From: Sphaerochaeta pleomorpha str. Grapes
Lineage (GTDB): Bacteria > Spirochaetota > Spirochaetia > Sphaerochaetales > Sphaerochaetaceae
Direction of reading: 5' to 3'
NCBI RefSeq assembly: GCF_000236685.1
Contig: NC_016633.1
Location: forward strand, 744,001 to 808,000
DNA length: 64,000 nucleotides
How positions within the stretch are numbered: position 1 is the stretch's first letter; each line of letters starts with the position of its first letter. The notes beneath the pieces were generated by a model. It saw only the letters and a program-made list of their open reading frames with translations. It searched no databases and was not told where the DNA came from. Below are positions 12,457 to 50,057 of the stretch, in pieces. The position numbers were made by a program, and so were the translations under genes.

Positions 12457-14472
12457 ATGCATTTCAATCTAGAAAAGGAACTCAATAAAGAGCAGTGCAA
12501 AGCTGCTTCGACCCTCTCTGGGCCGCTTTTAGTCATCGCGGGGGCAGGCAGTGGAAAAACACGCATGCTCACGTTTCGTATTGCCCATATGCTGGAAAGC
12601 GGAATAGACGAAAGCAATATCCTTGCCTTGACCTTTACAAACAAGGCTGCCAAGGAAATGGGGGAAAGAATCAAATCCTTGACTGGCCTTCCCCTTAAAA
12701 AAATGACTACCACTACGTTCCATTCCTTTGGCATGGGCATTCTCAAACAATATATTCAACACCTTGGGTTCAAGAACAATTTTACCGTCTATGATAGCAA
12801 CGACCGGATGGCTTTGCTCAAGGAAGTCATTATCAACCTGGATTATGTCCCCGATACCTTCGATCTCTATGAGCTTTCCAACCTATTTTCCGATTTGAAG
12901 ACAAAACGATCTGTTTTTGCTGCCGGGGCCTCTGATAAGATCAGGAACCTCTACAGCGAGTATGAGAAACACCTGAAAGCCTACAATGCCGTTGACTTCG
13001 ACGACCTGATCATGAAGCCTTTGGATCTTTTCGAAAAAAAGCCTGAGGTCCTTGCGGCCCTGAGAAACAGGTATACCCATATCCTGGTGGATGAATTTCA
13101 GGATACTTCCCTTTCCCAATACCGTATTGTAGAGCTTTTAGCCCAGGAAAGCCGAAATCTCTGTGTGGTCGGCGACGATGACCAGAGCATCTATAGCTGG
13201 AGAGGGGCAAACTACGAGAACCTTGTGATGTTCGAGCGTGACTTCCCCGAAAGGCTGGAAATCAAACTGGAGCGGAACTACCGCTCCACCGGGACTATCC
13301 TTGAGGCTGCCAACAAGCTCATCGTACACAATCAACAACGAAAAGAGAAGAAACTCTGGACTGACAGCGGTAAGGGAAGTTCCATCAGTCTCATCCACCC
13401 CGCAAACGAGGACGATGAGTCCGCGGTCATTGCCGAACAGATTCTGATGGCCCATCGTAAGGAGAACCGCCCGTTCTCTGATTTCGGGGTACTTGTCCGT
13501 ACCAATTCCCTTGTCCCTACGCTTGAGACACGTTTTATGGAAAAGGAAATCCCCACCCAGGTATCGGGTGGACAAAGTTTTTTCGACCGAAAGGAAATCC
13601 GTGATATTGTCAGCTATCTTAAAGTCCTGGCAAACCAAGATGATGACATCAATCTACTCAGGGTCATCAACACCCCAAGAAGAGGCATAGGCCGGGTAAC
13701 GCTCGAAAAGATGCGCAAGGTAGCCGACGACCACAAGTGTTCGCTTTACTCTGCCCTCTCTTTGATGGCAATAGCTACAGATGGCCAGATCAAGGAAGGG
13801 ATGCAGAAGACAATTAAGCGGTTTGTCACCATGATCGATGATTACCAGCAGCAGCTTTTTGAGGCGAAATCAAATAAGAATATGATTCTCAGAAGTCTGA
13901 TCCACGAAATCGGTTACAAGGATTTCCTCGCTGAGGAACACCCGGACAATGAGAATATCGTCAATTTCAAAATGAAGGGAATCGGAATCCTCTGTGATAT
14001 GTTTGCACGGTGGGAACGCAATCCTGACAACTATAATTCTTCAATATTCGATTACATAAACAGGATAAGCATCGCAGGTAAGGAAGACAGCGAAGGTGAC
14101 AGGAAGGGAAAGGTTGCCCTGATGACTATGCATGCTTCCAAGGGGTTGGAATTCGATACGGTATTCCTTGCCGGTATCGAAGACCAATATGTTCCCCATG
14201 CCAGGGCGATTGAAGACAATCCGGCAAACATCGATGAGGAGCGAAGACTCTTCTATGTGGCCATCACCCGCGCCAGGAGGGTGCTGGTAATATCATCGTG
14301 TGAACGCAGGAAGCGTGGCCATGATGAGATTTTGAGTGTCCCCTCGCGCTTCCTTGAGGAAATACCGAAGGAACTTTTCGATGAGGAAGATCCAAGCAGG
14401 GAGCTCTCTGCAAATGAGGTAACGGACAAACTCCGGTTGTTCAGGGAGAAACTGGAGGCAAGGAAAAAATGA
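12457..14472 (+). CDS. UvrD/PcrA-type superfamily 1 DNA helicase
   Basis: A 671-residue 3'-5' DNA helicase. Motif I is AGAGSGKTRM (about 28-37), motif Ia ALTFTNKAAKEM, motif II VDEFQDTS, motif III GDDDQSIYSWRGA, motif IV LERNYRS, motif V TMHASKGLEFD and motif VI VAITRARR. It is a little shorter than UvrD or PcrA and has no PcrA-type C-terminal extension. It likely works in nucleotide-excision or mismatch repair and in clearing replication blocks. It is the last gene of the rightward row beginning at 10037. Confidence 0.95.
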   Translation: MHFNLEKELNKEQCKAASTLSGPLLVIAGAGSGKTRMLTFRIAHMLESGIDESNILALTFTNKAAKEMGERIKSLTGLPLKKMTTTTFHSFGMGILKQYIQHLGFKNNFTVYDSNDRMALLKEVIINLDYVPDTFDLYELSNLFSDLKTKRSVFAAGASDKIRNLYSEYEKHLKAYNAVDFDDLIMKPLDLFEKKPEVLAALRNRYTHILVDEFQDTSLSQYRIVELLAQESRNLCVVGDDDQSIYSWRGANYENLVMFERDFPERLEIKLERNYRSTGTILEAANKLIVHNQQRKEKKLWTDSGKGSSISLIHPANEDDESAVIAEQILMAHRKENRPFSDFGVLVRTNSLVPTLETRFMEKEIPTQVSGGQSFFDRKEIRDIVSYLKVLANQDDDINLLRVINTPRRGIGRVTLEKMRKVADDHKCSLYSALSLMAIATDGQIKEGMQKTIKRFVTMIDDYQQQLFEAKSNKNMILRSLIHEIGYKDFLAEEHPDNENIVNFKMKGIGILCDMFARWERNPDNYNSSIFDYINRISIAGKEDSEGDRKGKVALMTMHASKGLEFDTVFLAGIEDQYVPHARAIEDNPANIDEERRLFYVAITRARRVLVISSCERRKRGHDEILSVPSRFLEEIPKELFDEEDPSRELSANEVTDKLRLFREKLEARKK

Positions 14473-14624: not shown

Positions 14625-15689
14625 ATGCAAAAAAACCATACATCTAATTATTTTTCCAAGAGATTTATTGTTATATGTATGGTATCTCTTGTCACTATCC
14701 CTGTGTTTGCCCAGTTGGTCTATTCGACGGAATCTTCGATTGACATTAGCTATGGTTATGGTTATTACAGCTATTATAGTGGTTATGGCTCTCTCGGTTC
14801 ATTGGTGGGGACTCTTAGCTACGATGGTAATGGCACAGAACCCAGTTCCCTCAATTTTTCAGGCTCTGCTCTAAACAACAACGGGGTAACATTTACCTTT
14901 CTCAAGAACGATGGTACTACCTACACACGTACGATCGATGCAGTATGCTATGTTACCTATACCAGAGACTTTGGGTCGCAACAAATTATTATGGCTTCCA
15001 GTTCGAGAACCTACAACTTGACAAGAATTAACTGGAATTACCCGGTAAAATTCTATCTTTTTTTCAACAATTCGGATTTAGAGAGAATATTCTACAATGC
15101 TCCTGGTAAGCTAGTATATGTTTCGACAAACACCTTTTTCAATCCACAGGAATACTATTCTCCTATTGAGACTATATCGAACCTTGGAACCACGACGCAA
15201 CCGATTCCCTTGCTTGGAGGCGGTCTGCTGGGAGCAGGAGGCATAAATTCTCTACCAGCGACAGATCTTTACTACGATTTCTCAAGCACTGCTATTCCCG
15301 AATATTCCATCAGTTTCACCGCCAATGATGTTTCGATCAATGATCTTACCGATGCAATCGACAATCCGATCCATATTACGGACTTGAAACTGGAAATCCT
15401 CAATTATGATGACGTATATATGGGACAAACGAATATCCAGGTCAAGTTCTTCCAGAGTGGGCATGCATCTTTTGAGTTTATCAACAATGCAGGGAAGACC
15501 ATACCGTTTACGTTATTGGCAAACGGAATCACCATTATTCCTAATATAAAATTCTTTCCCTGGGTAAAGCCCCTTATCGAGAATAACCTTGCAGCGATAG
15601 GTTTCTCTGTCACTCAAGCAGACTATGACCAGGCGGAAATGGGAGACTACAACGCTACCATTACCGTCGAACTGATTACCGGCGTATAA
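14625..15689 (+). CDS. secreted protein of unknown function with Gly/Tyr-rich segment
   Basis: A 354-residue exported protein I do not recognise. A signal peptide (residues 13-30, ending PVFA-Q) follows a basic N terminus. Mature residues 37-58 are rich in Gly, Tyr and Ser. The rest looks beta-rich, with many Thr/Asn/Ser and few charged residues and almost no cysteine, as in surface or fibre proteins. The last residues, GDYNATITVELITG, resemble the C termini of the two following genes (GDYSDTI.V..TP), suggesting a shared strand-type domain. AGAGGGAC lies upstream of the start and a TATAAT hexamer at 14546-14551. It is on the same strand as its two neighbours. Confidence 0.7.
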   Translation: MQKNHTSNYFSKRFIVICMVSLVTIPVFAQLVYSTESSIDISYGYGYYSYYSGYGSLGSLVGTLSYDGNGTEPSSLNFSGSALNNNGVTFTFLKNDGTTYTRTIDAVCYVTYTRDFGSQQIIMASSSRTYNLTRINWNYPVKFYLFFNNSDLERIFYNAPGKLVYVSTNTFFNPQEYYSPIETISNLGTTTQPIPLLGGGLLGAGGINSLPATDLYYDFSSTAIPEYSISFTANDVSINDLTDAIDNPIHITDLKLEILNYDDVYMGQTNIQVKFFQSGHASFEFINNAGKTIPFTLLANGITIIPNIKFFPWVKPLIENNLAAIGFSVTQADYDQAEMGDYNATITVELITGV

Positions 15690-15775
15690 TCCAGTACCTT
15701 TAAAATACATATTTTCTTTACTTATAACTATATAAAAACCTTGCACTCTCAGCTATTTATATCTATTCTAAGAAT

Positions 15776-16849
15776 ATGAAGAGACTTCCTGTTTTTTTCT
15801 TTATTCTTCTCATTATCTCATTTTCTTCTGCTTTCCTGGGGGCAGATATTACTGCGACCTATGAACCCGATCCTCATTTGGTTTTCACGACGGGAAACAG
15901 TCCATTCGATTCCTCTGATTTCATTGCACATCTGGGAACTTTAACGTTTCAATCGTCTGAGAATACATTTTTCTCCCCTTATCTGATTGACTTGAATATG
16001 AATAACCATTTTACAGTTATCGGCCCTACAACTTGGAATCCAGATAAGGAAGACCAGGATACCAGTGGGTGTATTGTTGCAGTCATTCAATATAACGGGA
16101 TAAAGCAAATCACAAACATCTGGGGAAACGGCGGAAGGGATTACCAACCTTTACTGGAAACCAATGGAAACCTAAAGACGTCGAGGATTGTTTCAGATTT
16201 CTATTTGCTCAGTGATCAGCCTGCTTCAGTTTTCATACAAGGATCAAGCTACAGGCTCATTTCAGGCTCCTTGGGAACCTTTAATGCAGGAGCTACTACG
16301 AATAATGGCCAAAATATTACGAAATCCCTGTTTTACATCAAAATCAACTCACAGACGCTCCCCTCAAACGGAAGCGCACCCTATCCTGCCATACCGATAA
16401 ATACCAACATCGCTGCACCCATTCCCTATCCGGGCAAGCCCGATCCAGTGGGCTACTTGTTTAGCATCATCAGCGAAGAATATTTCGACGTGGAAAATGC
16501 AATCGGTTTAAATCCCACCAAAGTCGGCACTGCTCGGTTGGTACTTTGCAATCCCTGCGCGAGTACCTCCTATGGGGTGGATGTCAAATTCACAGACAGT
16601 AACAACGGCACAGACTTCAGCCTTGGCCTGGATGGCAGTAAATCTGTCTATACCATTGGATATTCACTCAGATTCCAATCATCCGATGTTAAAGTAACAA
16701 ACCCCATACCCTGGGATAATCTTCATGAAGGTATCAATGACCAGAATATCTATGTTACGGGAATCGATGCAACTAAGGCAGAACTGGCCCCTTCAGGAGA
16801 CTATTCTGATACCATTACCGTTACGATAACCCCTAAGGATACGCATTGA
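15776..16849 (+). CDS. secreted protein of unknown function, paralogue A
   Basis: A 357-residue exported protein with signal peptide MKRLPVFFFILLIISFSSAF. It is clearly homologous to the next gene along its full length: shared blocks are ADITATYEPD, SDFIAHLGTLTF, YLFSIISEEYFDVENAIG, YGVDVKF, FSLGLDGSKSVYTIGYSLRF, and the ending LAPSGDYSDTITVTITP. The C-terminal pattern of alternating hydrophobic residues recalls spore-coat-U or pilin-like beta-sandwich domains, whose last strand also reads like YSDTVTVT; this is a loose resemblance only. No chaperone or usher gene is nearby. There is no clear Shine-Dalgarno sequence before the ATG, which follows an AT-rich gap. Confidence 0.75.
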   Translation: MKRLPVFFFILLIISFSSAFLGADITATYEPDPHLVFTTGNSPFDSSDFIAHLGTLTFQSSENTFFSPYLIDLNMNNHFTVIGPTTWNPDKEDQDTSGCIVAVIQYNGIKQITNIWGNGGRDYQPLLETNGNLKTSRIVSDFYLLSDQPASVFIQGSSYRLISGSLGTFNAGATTNNGQNITKSLFYIKINSQTLPSNGSAPYPAIPINTNIAAPIPYPGKPDPVGYLFSIISEEYFDVENAIGLNPTKVGTARLVLCNPCASTSYGVDVKFTDSNNGTDFSLGLDGSKSVYTIGYSLRFQSSDVKVTNPIPWDNLHEGINDQNIYVTGIDATKAELAPSGDYSDTITVTITPKDTH

Positions 16850-17017
16850 ATCCAATGCCTGGCATATACACTTCTTCTGGACAATAAATCGACTGACTGT
16901 ACAAAAATAAGAGTATCGTTAATCCGGTTGCAGGTACGTATGCTGCCCTATCCATTCTTTCAAATCCTCCCTCCCCTCAATCTTGCGCTTTGCACAGAAT
17001 ATACTTATTATTGGTCT

Positions 17018-18109
17018 ATGAGAAAAAAAAATCCTTTTTCCTTCATACTTTTACTCCTGTCAGTAACAATAGTTCCCCTAGGGGCAAGCATAACCGCGAC
17101 CTATATACCTGATACCAATCTCTATTTCACCATCGGATCGTCCCCTTTCGCCCCCTCCGATTTTATTGCACACCTGGGAACACTGACATTTTACATTCCC
17201 GACAACCAGTTGTTCGCACCTTCACTTGTCGATATGACAGCTACGAATAATTTCAGTTTTACCGGTCCGGTGACTGAGTACAACGACTGGCAGACAGGAC
17301 TTCCTGTCTACACAACCCAGACAAAGACAGGTAGAATCTGTGCGGTAACCACAGTCAAAGGGAAGACCACGTACAAGGAAATCTGGGGACAAGCGGGAAC
17401 CCAACCGCTCACCGATACGAGTGGCAATATAAACACCTCAGTCTTCGTTGCAGAAATTTATCTGGTCGGTTATCAGACGGCAAGCCATTTCAAGCCAGGA
17501 GCCATATACTCCATTACGGGAGGAACCTTTGGGTCTTTCAATGTGGCAGTGGCGCAAAACAGCAATGGTATCTATAATAGCAAGGAATACATCTCAGTAA
17601 ACGGGCAGGCAATCCCCTCAAACGGATCGCAACCGGCACCTCTGCAGCTAATCTCCAATGATGCGGTCCCCTTGCCCTACGTCGATCCAGACCATCCCTA
17701 TTCCACAGTGGATTACTTATTCGGTATCATTGAGGAAGCAACATTCAACGTTGACAATGCAATCGGGACAAAGGCCACACTGGCAGCCAAAGCCCAGCTA
17801 ACGCTTTCCAATTCTGATCCGGAAAAATCCTATGGGGTTGCTATCAAATTCGAAGACGGAAACCATGACGAAACATTCAGCCTTGGCCTCGATGGAAGCA
17901 AATCCATCTATACTATTGGGTATACACTCAGATTCCTTTCACAGAATGTCCTGGGAGGAGTTCCCATATCTTGGAATGGACTGAAGGAAGGAATAAACGA
18001 GCAAAATATCCTGATTACCGGCATCAATGCCACCGAGGCAGCACTGGCACCTTCAGGCGATTATTCCGATACCATTATCGTTTCGGTAACCCCCAAGGAC
18101 ACCTTGTAA
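17018..18109 (+). CDS. secreted protein of unknown function, paralogue B
   Basis: A 363-residue exported protein, paralogue of the gene at 15776. I start it at ATG 17018, where a signal peptide MRKKNPFSFILLLLSVTIV begins and aligns with that of paralogue A; the longer frame from 16928 adds 30 residues with no counterpart. Shared features are ASITATYIPD, SDFIAHLGTLTF, a NAIGT block, YGVAIKFEDG, FSLGLDGSKSIYTIGYTLRF and LAPSGDYSDTIIVSVTP. It lacks cysteines and looks beta-rich. The middle third differs most from paralogue A, so that part may face a variable partner. It has no clear ribosome site. It ends 28 bases from the convergent EIIC gene. Confidence 0.75.
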   Translation: MRKKNPFSFILLLLSVTIVPLGASITATYIPDTNLYFTIGSSPFAPSDFIAHLGTLTFYIPDNQLFAPSLVDMTATNNFSFTGPVTEYNDWQTGLPVYTTQTKTGRICAVTTVKGKTTYKEIWGQAGTQPLTDTSGNINTSVFVAEIYLVGYQTASHFKPGAIYSITGGTFGSFNVAVAQNSNGIYNSKEYISVNGQAIPSNGSQPAPLQLISNDAVPLPYVDPDHPYSTVDYLFGIIEEATFNVDNAIGTKATLAAKAQLTLSNSDPEKSYGVAIKFEDGNHDETFSLGLDGSKSIYTIGYTLRFLSQNVLGGVPISWNGLKEGINEQNILITGINATEAALAPSGDYSDTIIVSVTPKDTL

Positions 18110-19295: not shown

Positions 19296-20915
19296 TTATG
19301 CTTGCACGGGAATTTTTCCTTCACAGAGAAACAGGGTTCCCTGGTAGGGTTTGAGAGAAAATTTTCCATCCCCTGAAGACAGAGAAGAGGTTGCAATTTG
19401 CGTTGAAAAGAGACTGGAATATTGGATAGTAGCATCCGGTTCTTCGAGCAATGTGACAGATTGGTTTTTCGAGGAAAAATTCAAAAGCACCAAGCGTTTT
19501 TCTTTTCCAAGCGTTCTCGTATAGGCAAGGATCTTTTGGTTGTCAGTCTTGCAAAACGTACAGAGCCCCTCTTGCAGAACATTATCTTGGGCGCGCAATC
19601 TGATCAGGTCTTTGTAAAACGCAAGCATGGAAAAGGGTTCGTTTTTCTGTTCCTCCACAGATAGCCCTTCACACTGACGGGCAAATGGCATCCAAGGCTT
19701 TCCGGTGGTAAACCCATGCTTCTCGCTCGCATCCCAGAGCATAGGGCCTCTCTCGCCATCACGGCCGACTTTGACCGGCCAGTACCTGAGCCCTACGGGA
19801 TCATTCATTTCCTTGTGGCTTACTACAGAATTTAAAAGCCCTAATTCTTCGCCATAATAAAGAAAAACAGTCCCTCTCTGGGTAAGAAGAAAAAAGGTTG
19901 CAAGCTTTGCCTTCGCCGTATTGTTCCCATAGCGGGTGATCGACCGTTTGACATCATGGTTATTCAGAACCCAGGTAGGCCATCTTTGACGGCCGACTGC
20001 TTCATACCACCGCTGCGCAGCAGTCTGCCATTTCCTGGCATCAAAAGGAAGCTCGATGAGAGAAAAGTCGAAGGTAAGATTCAGCTCGTCTTTATTTTTC
20101 CCGAGATAGCTTGCTGCCATCTCTGGTTCGCCTGGCCGCTCAACCATGATTTCCCCGACAAGCATACGTTCGTCGTACGTATCGATACATTTTCTGAATT
20201 TGCGGAGTTTTTGATGACTTTCTGGCCTATTTCTGTCGAATATATGCCGTTGCATGTCATAGGGACGTAACCGAGACCCGACCATTGGCGGATTACTGCG
20301 GAAAGAATCATCTTTTATGATGCAATTGATAACATCGAGGCGGAATCCATCGACCCCTTCTTCCAACCAGAACCCTACCTCATCGAAGATTGCGAGCACT
20401 GTTTCCTCATTTCTCCAATTCAAATCAGGCTGTTCACGCAAAAAAGAATGAAAATAATACTGCCCTCGCACCGAATCGAAGGACCACCCTTTCCCTCCAA
20501 AGGCAGAATACCAATTGTTGGGGATGGTATCACTCCAGATATAGTAATCTTTCTTTTTGGAATCCTTGGAAGCCCTGCTTTCCTGAAACCAGGCATGCTG
20601 GTCAGAAGTGTGGTTCAATACCATATCGAAAAGCACTTTCAATCCCATTCTATGAGCTGTGGCAATTAATTCGCGAACATCTGCCAGTGTGCCGAAAATG
20701 GGGTCTATGCCCCGGTAATCAGAAATATCGTAGCCGAAATCTGCCATGGGAGAAGTAAAAATTGGGCTCAGCCATATTGCACCGACGCCCAGGTCCTGTA
20801 TGTATTGAAGCCGGTTGATAATCCCACGGATGTCCCCAATACCATCGCCATTGCTATCTTGGAAGCTTCTCGGATAAATCTGATAAATGACAGTCTCTTC
20901 CCACCATGGATTCAT
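19296..20915 (-). CDS. GH13 alpha-glucosidase / oligo-1,6-glucosidase
   Basis: A 539-residue cytoplasmic glycosidase of family GH13. Conserved regions are YQIYPRSFQDSNGDGIGD (starting about residue 11), region I DMVLNHTS, region II DGFRLDVIN with the nucleophile aspartate, region III GEIM with the acid/base glutamate, and region IV NNHDVKR with the transition-state aspartate. The layout matches oligo-1,6-glucosidases and alpha-1,4-glucosidases that trim short maltooligosaccharides or isomaltose; the exact bond cannot be told. No signal peptide is present, so its substrate must be imported. ATG 20915 has GGAGG eight bases upstream; the alternative TTG start five codons earlier falls in that site. 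Confidence 0.9.
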   Translation of the reverse strand: MNPWWEETVIYQIYPRSFQDSNGDGIGDIRGIINRLQYIQDLGVGAIWLSPIFTSPMADFGYDISDYRGIDPIFGTLADVRELIATAHRMGLKVLFDMVLNHTSDQHAWFQESRASKDSKKKDYYIWSDTIPNNWYSAFGGKGWSFDSVRGQYYFHSFLREQPDLNWRNEETVLAIFDEVGFWLEEGVDGFRLDVINCIIKDDSFRSNPPMVGSRLRPYDMQRHIFDRNRPESHQKLRKFRKCIDTYDERMLVGEIMVERPGEPEMAASYLGKNKDELNLTFDFSLIELPFDARKWQTAAQRWYEAVGRQRWPTWVLNNHDVKRSITRYGNNTAKAKLATFFLLTQRGTVFLYYGEELGLLNSVVSHKEMNDPVGLRYWPVKVGRDGERGPMLWDASEKHGFTTGKPWMPFARQCEGLSVEEQKNEPFSMLAFYKDLIRLRAQDNVLQEGLCTFCKTDNQKILAYTRTLGKEKRLVLLNFSSKNQSVTLLEEPDATIQYSSLFSTQIATSSLSSGDGKFSLKPYQGTLFLCEGKIPVQA

Positions 20916-21270
20916 CCGCTCACCCTCCAAAGCAAAGCATTTTACAAAACAACAGGACTATCAATAGCCAGGGGGTCTCTGATTTTTTCTTGAAATAGAA
21001 AGCATTCCCCTGGTACAACGCCAATGCATTATAGTTTTTACTATATGTTTTTAAAATCGTTTCTATTTGTTCTTATATACATTTAATATTTTTTTTATAT
21101 CGTTCCCATTTTCTTCAATATGTTTCTTGATCTTTATTCCTCTCTGTTTTTATTAGTTTCTCATCATTTTTCATTGGATTATAGGTAGAAATAGTATAGC
21201 TAGGGTTAATCATCCAGAAAAGTATCGATAAAACATTCGAATAGAAATGACACGAAGAAATAGCGGAAAC
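20916..21270. other. AT-rich intergenic region
   Basis: About 355 bases with no convincing gene, dominated by A and T. It holds a hairpin-forming inverted repeat, TATAGT TTTT ACTATA at 21030-21045, and a wider pair CCAGGGG / CCCCTGG at 20969-21013. The GH13 promoter must lie in its left part but no clean -35/-10 pair could be named. Confidence 0.5.
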
Positions 21271-43999: not shown

Positions 44000-44728
44000 C
44001 TAAACCATCTCCCCTATCACAATCCAGAGACCTGACGCTCCGACAAAAAGGTATACGATTTTCTTGAGCATGGCTTCCGGTATTTTGTTGAATGACTTCA
44101 ACCCCAGTACTGTACCAACGAGAATGGCCATCCATCCAAGGAATATGAGAGGAACATCAGTAAGGACCAAAGCCCCGTTGAGTACCCTTATTATGATACT
44201 TTCCAGATTGCAAAAGAAAAAATATGCCTGGATGGTGGCAAGATACTGCGTCTTATCCTGTACGGATGGCAACAGATAGAGCGCAACGGGTGGCCCCCCA
44301 ATGCCAAACAAGCCATTTCCAAAACCGGCAAGGGTACCCATGAGCAATCCGTTGCGAACCCTGCTCTCGATTACTATCTTTTTCGAGAATACTGCGAAGA
44401 ACAGGGAGATTGCAACTAACGTCAACCCAAGGATTATTTTCAGGTTGCCTGGTTCTACCTGAAGGCTGAATACCGTAACAAAGCCTGCTATCAAAATAGA
44501 GGGTATCAAGAGGGGAAATAACGTCTTCCATTGGATTTGCTTCCAATAGAGTACTGTCAGGTACCCAGTACTGGCCATTGCAATGATCTGGCAAAGGGTA
44601 ACCGCAGTTGAGAAAGGAAAAAAAGAAGGAAGGAAAACCATGACGATAATAGGAAATCCAAATCCAATATTTGCTTGTAAAAAAGCACCGGCAAAAATTA
44701 TGAGAAATAAATAAATGGCAATATTCAT
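44000..44728 (-). CDS. TauE/SafE-family membrane protein (sulfite/organic anion exporter type)
   Basis: A 242-residue membrane protein with about eight hydrophobic segments and the twofold repeat of the TauE/SafE family; GFGFPIIVMVFLP in the first repeat and GFGNGLFGIGGPPVALYLL in the second are its typical glycine motifs. Family members export sulfite, sulfoacetate or related anions; the substrate here is unknown. GAGG lies five bases before the ATG. It is downstream of the rRNA operon on the same strand, past a terminator. Confidence 0.88.
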   Translation of the reverse strand: MNIAIYLFLIIFAGAFLQANIGFGFPIIVMVFLPSFFPFSTAVTLCQIIAMASTGYLTVLYWKQIQWKTLFPLLIPSILIAGFVTVFSLQVEPGNLKIILGLTLVAISLFFAVFSKKIVIESRVRNGLLMGTLAGFGNGLFGIGGPPVALYLLPSVQDKTQYLATIQAYFFFCNLESIIIRVLNGALVLTDVPLIFLGWMAILVGTVLGLKSFNKIPEAMLKKIVYLFVGASGLWIVIGEMV

Positions 44729-44796
44729 ACAACCTCGATTTTGGACATTGTATCATGGTTTGCCTTTGTACAAGGAATCAAAACTGCCCAGAAACG

Positions 44797-44819
44797 ACAA
44801 AAGCGCACCGAAGTGCGCT
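44797..44819 (-). terminator. terminator of the rRNA operon
   Basis: On the minus strand AGCGCAC TTCG GTGCGCT is followed by TTTTG. It lies 50 bases after the last 5S gene. Confidence 0.8.
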
Positions 44820-44868
44820 CCTGCAATATATGGACCTCACCCCACAGGGGGGAAAAGGGCAAAAAAAA

Positions 44869-44985
44869 GGCCCGGCGGCTACCTACTCTCCCACGGGCGA
44901 ACCGCAGTACCATCGGCGTGAGAGCGCTTGACTTCCGTGTTCGGGATGGGAACGGGTATAACCACTCTGCTATGGCCACCGGGCC
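44869..44985 (-). rRNA. rrf: 5S ribosomal RNA, distal copy
   Basis: A 117-base 5S gene; the terminal helix pairs GGCCCGGTGG with CCGCCGGGCC. Internal marks are CCCGAACACGGAAGT and GGGAGAGTAGGT near the 3' end. It differs from the upstream copy at four bases, two of which change together within one helix. A T-run follows directly. Confidence 0.95.
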
Positions 44986-45099
44986 GGCCAACGCCTGGTA
45001 GCCTGAGCGGGGGGCTCGGGCGACCGGCCTTGGCGGTCCGAAAGGGACAAGGGACATATGCCGGGGGCGCAAACGCGCCCGGCAAAAGGGCAAAGAAAA

Positions 45100-45216
45100 G
45101 GCCCGGCGGCTACCTACTCTCCCACGGACGAACCGTAGTACCATCGGCGTGAGAGTGCTTGACTTCCGTGTTCGGGATGGGAACGGGTATATCCACTCTG
45201 CTATGGCCACCGGGCC
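45100..45216 (-). rRNA. rrf: 5S ribosomal RNA, proximal copy
   Basis: A 117-base 5S gene, next to the 23S 3' end. It is nearly the same as the distal copy; the helix substitution TACGGTTCGT instead of TGCGGTTCGC keeps the pair (A-U for G-C), so both copies appear functional. Confidence 0.95.
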
Positions 45217-45287
45217 GGCCAACGCCTGGTAGCCTGAGCATGGAGCTCGGGCGACCGGCCTTGGCGGTCCCGCGGGGGACTGGAACG

Positions 45288-48241
<2,954 letters not shown>

Positions 48242-48289
48242 TCTTCCAATCCCTACGCTCAAACTGTCAATAATCGCTGTAAAACTCTC

Positions 48290-48363
48290 TGGAGGCAAGG
48301 GGATTCGAACCCCTGACCCTCGGCTTGCAAAGCCGATGCTCTAGCCAGCTGAGCTATGCCCCC
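48290..48363 (-). tRNA. tRNA-Ala (anticodon TGC)
   Basis: A 74-base cloverleaf in the 16S-23S spacer. The acceptor stem is GGGGGCA / TGCCTCC (one G-U pair), the anticodon loop is CTTTGCAAG with TGC, and the T loop GGTTCGAATCC is standard. The CCA end is not encoded. Confidence 0.95.
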
Positions 48364-48513
48364 GACGCACTTGGACAAAAGAGGGAGGGAAGGATTCGAA
48401 GATTTCGGCATGCGCACCCAAATGGGCGTCTTGTTCGCAGGATTTTCGCCTGCTGGCCAACGGCCTTGGATTGCGGTCCGCGGCTGTGAGGGCCTCGGAC
48501 CTGCCTTTCTTTG

Positions 48514-50057
<1,544 letters not shown>

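Follow-up and report, generated by a model that had tools for sequence, protein, structure and literature searches.

In Sphaerochaeta pleomorpha, a spirochaete of round and not spiral shape, three consecutive chromosomal genes, here called P0001, P0002 and P0003, probably specify parts of a chaperone-usher (CU) pilus of divergent type that is encoded at scattered places in the genome, and their products most likely serve as alternative tip adhesins. The three genes form a family, the family has a two-domain fold whose C-terminal domain is homologous to pilins, and a chaperone, an usher and single-domain pilins are encoded in the same genome; use of the host usher, a position at the pilus tip, donor-strand exchange and the binding of a receptor or ligand would follow by analogy with characterized CU systems. 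The genes occupy C1:758625-762109 of a genome consisting of one contig of 3.59 Mb, within a stretch of 64,000 nucleotides, the window (Table 1). Elsewhere in the window, positions ~44700-50000 carry Arg/Pro/Ser-rich spurious ORFs only, without a long credible coding frame, and are possibly an rRNA region.

Table 1. Features of the P0001-P0003 cluster, its neighbours and the chaperone-usher pair (window positions unless a contig or locus is given)
Feature	Position	Strand	Description	Basis
P0001	14625..15689	+	354 aa, predicted secreted two-domain subunit	ORF, family profile score
P0002	15776..16849	+	357 aa, predicted secreted two-domain adhesin-like subunit	ORF, identity to P0003, family distribution
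P0003	17018..18109	+	363 aa, predicted secreted two-domain adhesin-like subunit	ORF, AlphaFold2 model, Foldseek
Probable P0003 signal peptide	17018..17086	+	~23 aa, probable cleavage after LGA	Inspection, model helix 6-17
P0003 N-terminal beta domain and linker	17087..17695	+	Putative receptor-binding domain	Model, column identity
P0003 C-terminal pilin (SCPU-like) domain	17696..18106	+	Last strand GDYSDTIIVSVTP	PF05229 in relatives, CsuE, hhalign
PapD-type chaperone	G000:C1:812968-813735			PF00345, 32.1 bits (cut-off 23)
Usher	G000:C1:809628-812945 (L128:9629-12946)	-	1,098 residues	Model matches FimD/PapC
PcrA/UvrD helicase	12457..14472	+	Conserved left neighbour; synteny marker, outside the system	Same order in other genus genomes
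Alpha-glucosidase	19296..20930	-	Conserved right neighbour; synteny marker	Same order in other genus genomes

A family of predicted secreted proteins in a stable chromosomal position

A first-pass annotation of the window described three consecutive rightward genes for nearly cysteine-free proteins, two of them full-length paralogues with conserved ends, a divergent middle and no clear Shine-Dalgarno site, and in all these respects it holds. The three genes are confirmed as ORFs, the mature proteins contain 1, 3 and 1 Cys respectively, and P0002 and P0003 are 49% identical over their full length, with 56% identity in residues 24-85, 42% in residues 86-227 and 59% in residues 228-363. By inspection, all three N-termini, like those of most relatives, are basic and then run into a hydrophobic, signal-like stretch. 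A GAGAGG-like Shine-Dalgarno site lies upstream of P0001 and none is obvious before P0002 or P0003; promoter and terminator scans scored the real sequence no better than shuffles. P0003 carries a run of nine A residues at codons 2-5 (window 17022-17030), and its relatives likewise carry A or T runs of 7-8 bases near the start; judged by its sequence, the nine-A run makes slipped-strand phase variation of P0003 possible.

The same annotation described only two of the three genes as paralogues, and here it has to be amended. Pairwise comparison of P0001 with its paralogues revealed no clear similarity; against the family profile P0001 scored 32.4 bits, as compared to 9.8 for the best of 1000 shuffles, and its C-terminal domain scored 95 bits against a C-domain profile that counts P0001 itself among its members. 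This domain aligns with the conserved W and the GxYxxTI strand of the family. Because P0001 stands well above shuffled sequence on the family profile and also matches in its C-domain, the three proteins are all paralogues, and on sequence comparison they make up one family of which P0001 is a distant member, the most divergent of the three and with only two relatives found (in genomes G099 and G100). The three proteins escape general models: Pfam and NCBIfam searches with P0001-P0003 gave no model match, and no Pfam family even at E<=1, and a phmmer search of P0002 against the PDB returned only noise-level immunoglobulin light chains.

A search of spirochaete genomes for similar clusters, which the first-pass annotation had suggested, located the family in 24 of 26 genus genomes, at 1-7 copies each, and in 28 of the 139 genomes of the order. 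Five non-Sphaerochaeta genomes carry it, it is almost absent elsewhere among 393 spirochaete genomes, and tblastn of the family against plasmids found none. Related loci were not returned by a single-protein query, and a query with a conserved sub-alignment returned Sphaerochaeta records. In the genus the cluster usually occupies the same slot, in the order pcrA/uvrD - cluster - alpha-glucosidase - parA; where enough flanking sequence was read, the alpha-glucosidase/ParA side often also includes glutamine synthetase, and 1-6 family ORFs, fragments among them, lie between the conserved flanks. The cluster is a stable chromosomal locus and not a mobile island. Several family members in other genomes (L039:7036-8267, L041:6866-7920, L011 and L088) are interrupted, either by a frameshift or by a stop codon in frame, and would be pseudogenes, phase-off states or assembly errors.

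The conserved synteny, together with the absence of phage genes around the cluster, also bears on a possible viral origin. Proteins that are beta-rich, variable and encoded in tandem might be phage-derived tail fibres or other viral beta-sandwich proteins, and for one relative a phage adaptor model did give a match (E 0.05), but the best viral structure match reached only E 4e-4 with a TM-score of at most 0.16, as compared to 8e-7 for CU adhesins, and a phage origin is scarcely credible.

A two-domain fold with a C-terminal pilin domain

Structure prediction, which had likewise been proposed at the outset, points to the CU tip adhesins. An AlphaFold2 model of P0003, built on a 42-sequence alignment (pLDDT 90.1, pTM 0.61), was compared with the PDB by Foldseek, and ranks 1-12 were all occupied by two-domain CU tip adhesins, namely CfaE, the best match, FimH, CupB6 and CsuE, at E 8e-7 to 1.5e-4 and probabilities of 0.99-1.0. 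PapG follows at rank 17. TM-scores of the full-length model to the tip adhesins are low, at 0.22-0.29 with an rmsd of ~15 A, which a differently set hinge between the two domains of the model would explain, though not prove.

Sequence comparisons lead to the same class of proteins. When the family profile was searched against PDB sequences, CsuE was the sole credible match (E 0.0065), with one other at E 1.7. In two relatives the C-domain scores above the cut-off of the SCPU model PF05229, and in several others it narrowly misses that score; P0001-P0003 themselves fall short of the gathering threshold. A profile of the C-domain matches Sphaerochaeta pilins in hhalign at 93.4% (E 2.6e-7), with reversed-profile controls below 1%. 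On these comparisons the C-terminal domain of the family is a pilin domain of SCPU-like type, and the loose likeness to spore-coat-U or pilin domains that had been noted from the sequence, as well as the fibre or adhesin system suggested with it, proved well founded; the surface layer offered as a further option is supported by nothing that was found. A weak SCPU match elsewhere in the host genome was rejected as a chance match to an RND transporter.

The N-terminal domain is the more variable part, with a column identity of 0.27 (residues 24-215) against 0.34 in the C-domain. Its profile is similar to none of the C-domain, the pilins or the chaperone, and no adhesin matches it in sequence.

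The model also helps to distinguish a tip subunit from other subunits of a CU-assembled fibre. Several tandem paralogues per genome, served by one usher and with a pilin array located elsewhere, are what might be expected of two-domain shaft, anchor or capsule-like coat subunits, of which several kinds would occur in each fibre. Foldseek, however, prefers tip adhesins over pilins, with PapA only at rank 49, and a shaft subunit needs a free donor strand, whereas the mature N-terminus of P0003 enters folded strand E26-31 directly in the model, with no evident free donor extension, and in this it resembles known tips. A non-tip role for P0001-P0003 is thus unlikely.

Chaperone, usher and pilins encoded at separate loci

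No chaperone, usher or secretion gene had been noticed near the cluster, which is correct inside the window and fails just past its end, where a PapD-type chaperone gene and an usher gene lie 1.6-5.7 kb beyond the window and 47-51 kb from P0001-P0003. Scans of the 26 genus genomes with the Pfam usher (PF00577) and PapD_N (PF00345) models gave nothing over cut-off, and to read this as true absence was rejected, because the neighbours of a sub-threshold usher match (L044) showed the scans to be false negatives. The sub-threshold usher matches, of which one comes from within the genus and three from sister genera, are ORFs of 1,100-1,300 residues, each immediately preceded by a PapD-like chaperone gene, and in the sister genera the usher-like ORF is followed by arrays of ~200-residue pilin-like genes. 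In other lineages of Spirochaetota, PapD-like chaperones lie beside usher-like genes of normal length (840-905 aa; L105, L106 and L107), and two genomes of the phylum pass the PF00577 cut-off.

A chaperone profile detects one copy in 23 of the 26 genus genomes, including all 13 of the good ones and the host genome, and is matched in 105 of the 139 genomes of the order. PF00345 is matched at E<=0.001 by 23 of 28 relatives, and the sole PDB match of the chaperone family is EcpB. The chaperone is adjoined by a TetR-type regulator and the usher by the V-type ATPase operon of the window end, and the order TetR - chaperone - usher - V-type ATPase recurs across the family. At E<=0.01 Pfam has no family for the host usher; in Foldseek its model finds FimD/PapC at ranks 1-19 (E 1.7e-32, TM to target 0.61-0.66), followed by generic barrels at 1e-6. 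Because FimD/PapC stand so far above generic barrels, the predicted structure makes the identity of the 1,098-residue protein as an usher secure at the fold level. Its N-terminus forms a hydrophobic helix with a conserved Cys at the end (LFLSxFxxTCF), separated from the usher domains by a disordered Pro-rich linker of ~150 residues; this usher may be a lipoprotein or may be anchored in the inner membrane.

The third component is found further along the chromosome. The C-domain profile gives weak matches on ORFs of ~180 aa in many genus genomes, and these loci consist of tandem single-domain pilin-like genes. At least six pilin genes are present in the host at C1:1478697-1490178, ~720 kb beyond the cluster; the search for them covered the 400 kb of the genome to which related genomes had pointed, and other loci may exist. 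The best PDB match of the Sphaerochaeta pilin profile is the CS17 fimbrial major subunit (E 0.0011), and in hhalign these pilins match those located within the CU operons of sister genera at 97.7% (E 1e-12; reversed controls below 1%). The C-domains of the window family thus resemble pilins of the genus, which in turn resemble pilins adjoining a chaperone and usher, and the chain of homology is closed. In other Sphaerochaeta genomes (L163:6718-8774 and L169:1200-3205) a further, distinct tandem set of three pilin-like genes adjoins htpG, and its relationship to the pilins at C1:1484971-1490178 is distant.

The chaperone and usher would be the cognate partners of P0001-P0003. Every complete genome with the family has the chaperone, as do all five non-Sphaerochaeta genomes that carry it, and the usher adjoins wherever the flank was read. 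Across the order, the co-occurrence of family and chaperone (26/2/79/32, Fisher p 0.015, phylogeny ignored) is weak evidence because both are near-universal in the genus. The alternative is that P0001-P0003 are stand-alone, pilin-descended beta proteins, secreted or on the outer surface, that have left the CU route as self-complete folds, periplasmic or released. Their genes are unlinked to CU genes, usher use is a matter of analogy, and some relatives appear degraded or frameshifted, as might be expected of such proteins; against this, besides the constant presence of the chaperone, the C-domain retains the C-terminal strand of a pilin, with the last strand of P0003 at residues 353-359 of the model, four residues from the C-terminus, and apparently no G strand after F. 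We regard a stand-alone role as quite improbable.

A probable divergent pilus with candidate interchangeable tips

In established CU biology the chaperone donates a strand to each subunit, the adhesin is secreted first, and pilins are added by donor-strand exchange (PMC4654587). On this model, P0001-P0003 would each be exported by Sec, after which the PapD-type chaperone would complete the presumably unfinished C-terminal pilin domain and pass the subunit to the one usher of the genome. The usher would open and secrete the adhesin first, placing it at the pilus tip, and donor-strand exchange would add single-domain pilins, encoded elsewhere, behind it. The variable N-terminal domain would bind a ligand, probably a surface or a glycan. 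One usher together with 1-7 adhesin genes per genome suggests that the paralogues may be interchangeable tips. Counting against a tip-adhesin function, the candidate adhesins, the chaperone and usher, and the pilins are encoded at separate loci with no shared operon, and pili have not been observed.

With the tip adhesins CfaE, FimH, PapG, CupB6 and CsuE the window family shares a two-domain, all-beta architecture, predicted to be secreted, with a C-terminal pilin-type domain and a genome that encodes chaperone and usher, but identity to them is only 8-14%, the archaic disulphide pattern is absent, and the genes lie apart from those for chaperone and usher, with up to seven paralogues for one usher. 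From the SCPU, or archaic (sigma), pilins, with which it shares a GxYxDTxTVT terminal strand, the family differs in its extra N-terminal domain and in that no Cys is conserved in its alignment, whereas archaic pilins have conserved disulphide cysteines (PMC4654587). Resemblances to alternative (alpha) CU systems, namely the CFA/I-CS17 class 5 fimbriae and ECP, come from the pilin, from the CfaE-like fold and from the chaperone, yet these systems are single operons in Proteobacteria whereas the Sphaerochaeta genes are dispersed, and the Sphaerochaeta usher differs in its hydrophobic N-terminal anchor and Pro-rich linker. We would tentatively suggest that in these non-spiral spirochaetes one divergent usher, unlike FimD/PapC in its N-terminal anchor and linker, might serve 1-7 interchangeable tips and several dispersed pilin arrays, giving a switchable adhesin repertoire.

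CU tip adhesins as such are a known kind of protein. The archaic CU class has been placed in Proteobacteria, Cyanobacteria and Deinococcus-Thermus (PMC4654587), and ushers in spirochaetes are no new statement because a 2016 table already credits Spirochaetae with the fimbrial usher family (PMC4827864); a literature search of incomplete coverage retrieved no paper naming Sphaerochaeta together with chaperone-usher. What is new is the family itself, the dispersed arrangement of the genes, the divergent chaperone-usher pair of Sphaerochaetales, and an usher with a Cys-ended helix and a Pro-rich linker. A genus-wide family of predicted secreted proteins thereby gains a testable function, and Sphaerochaetales are seen to have a CU pathway that Pfam models nearly miss. 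If the tips are truly interchangeable, how one usher chooses among several of them would be a mechanistic question that can be answered in a free-living organism.
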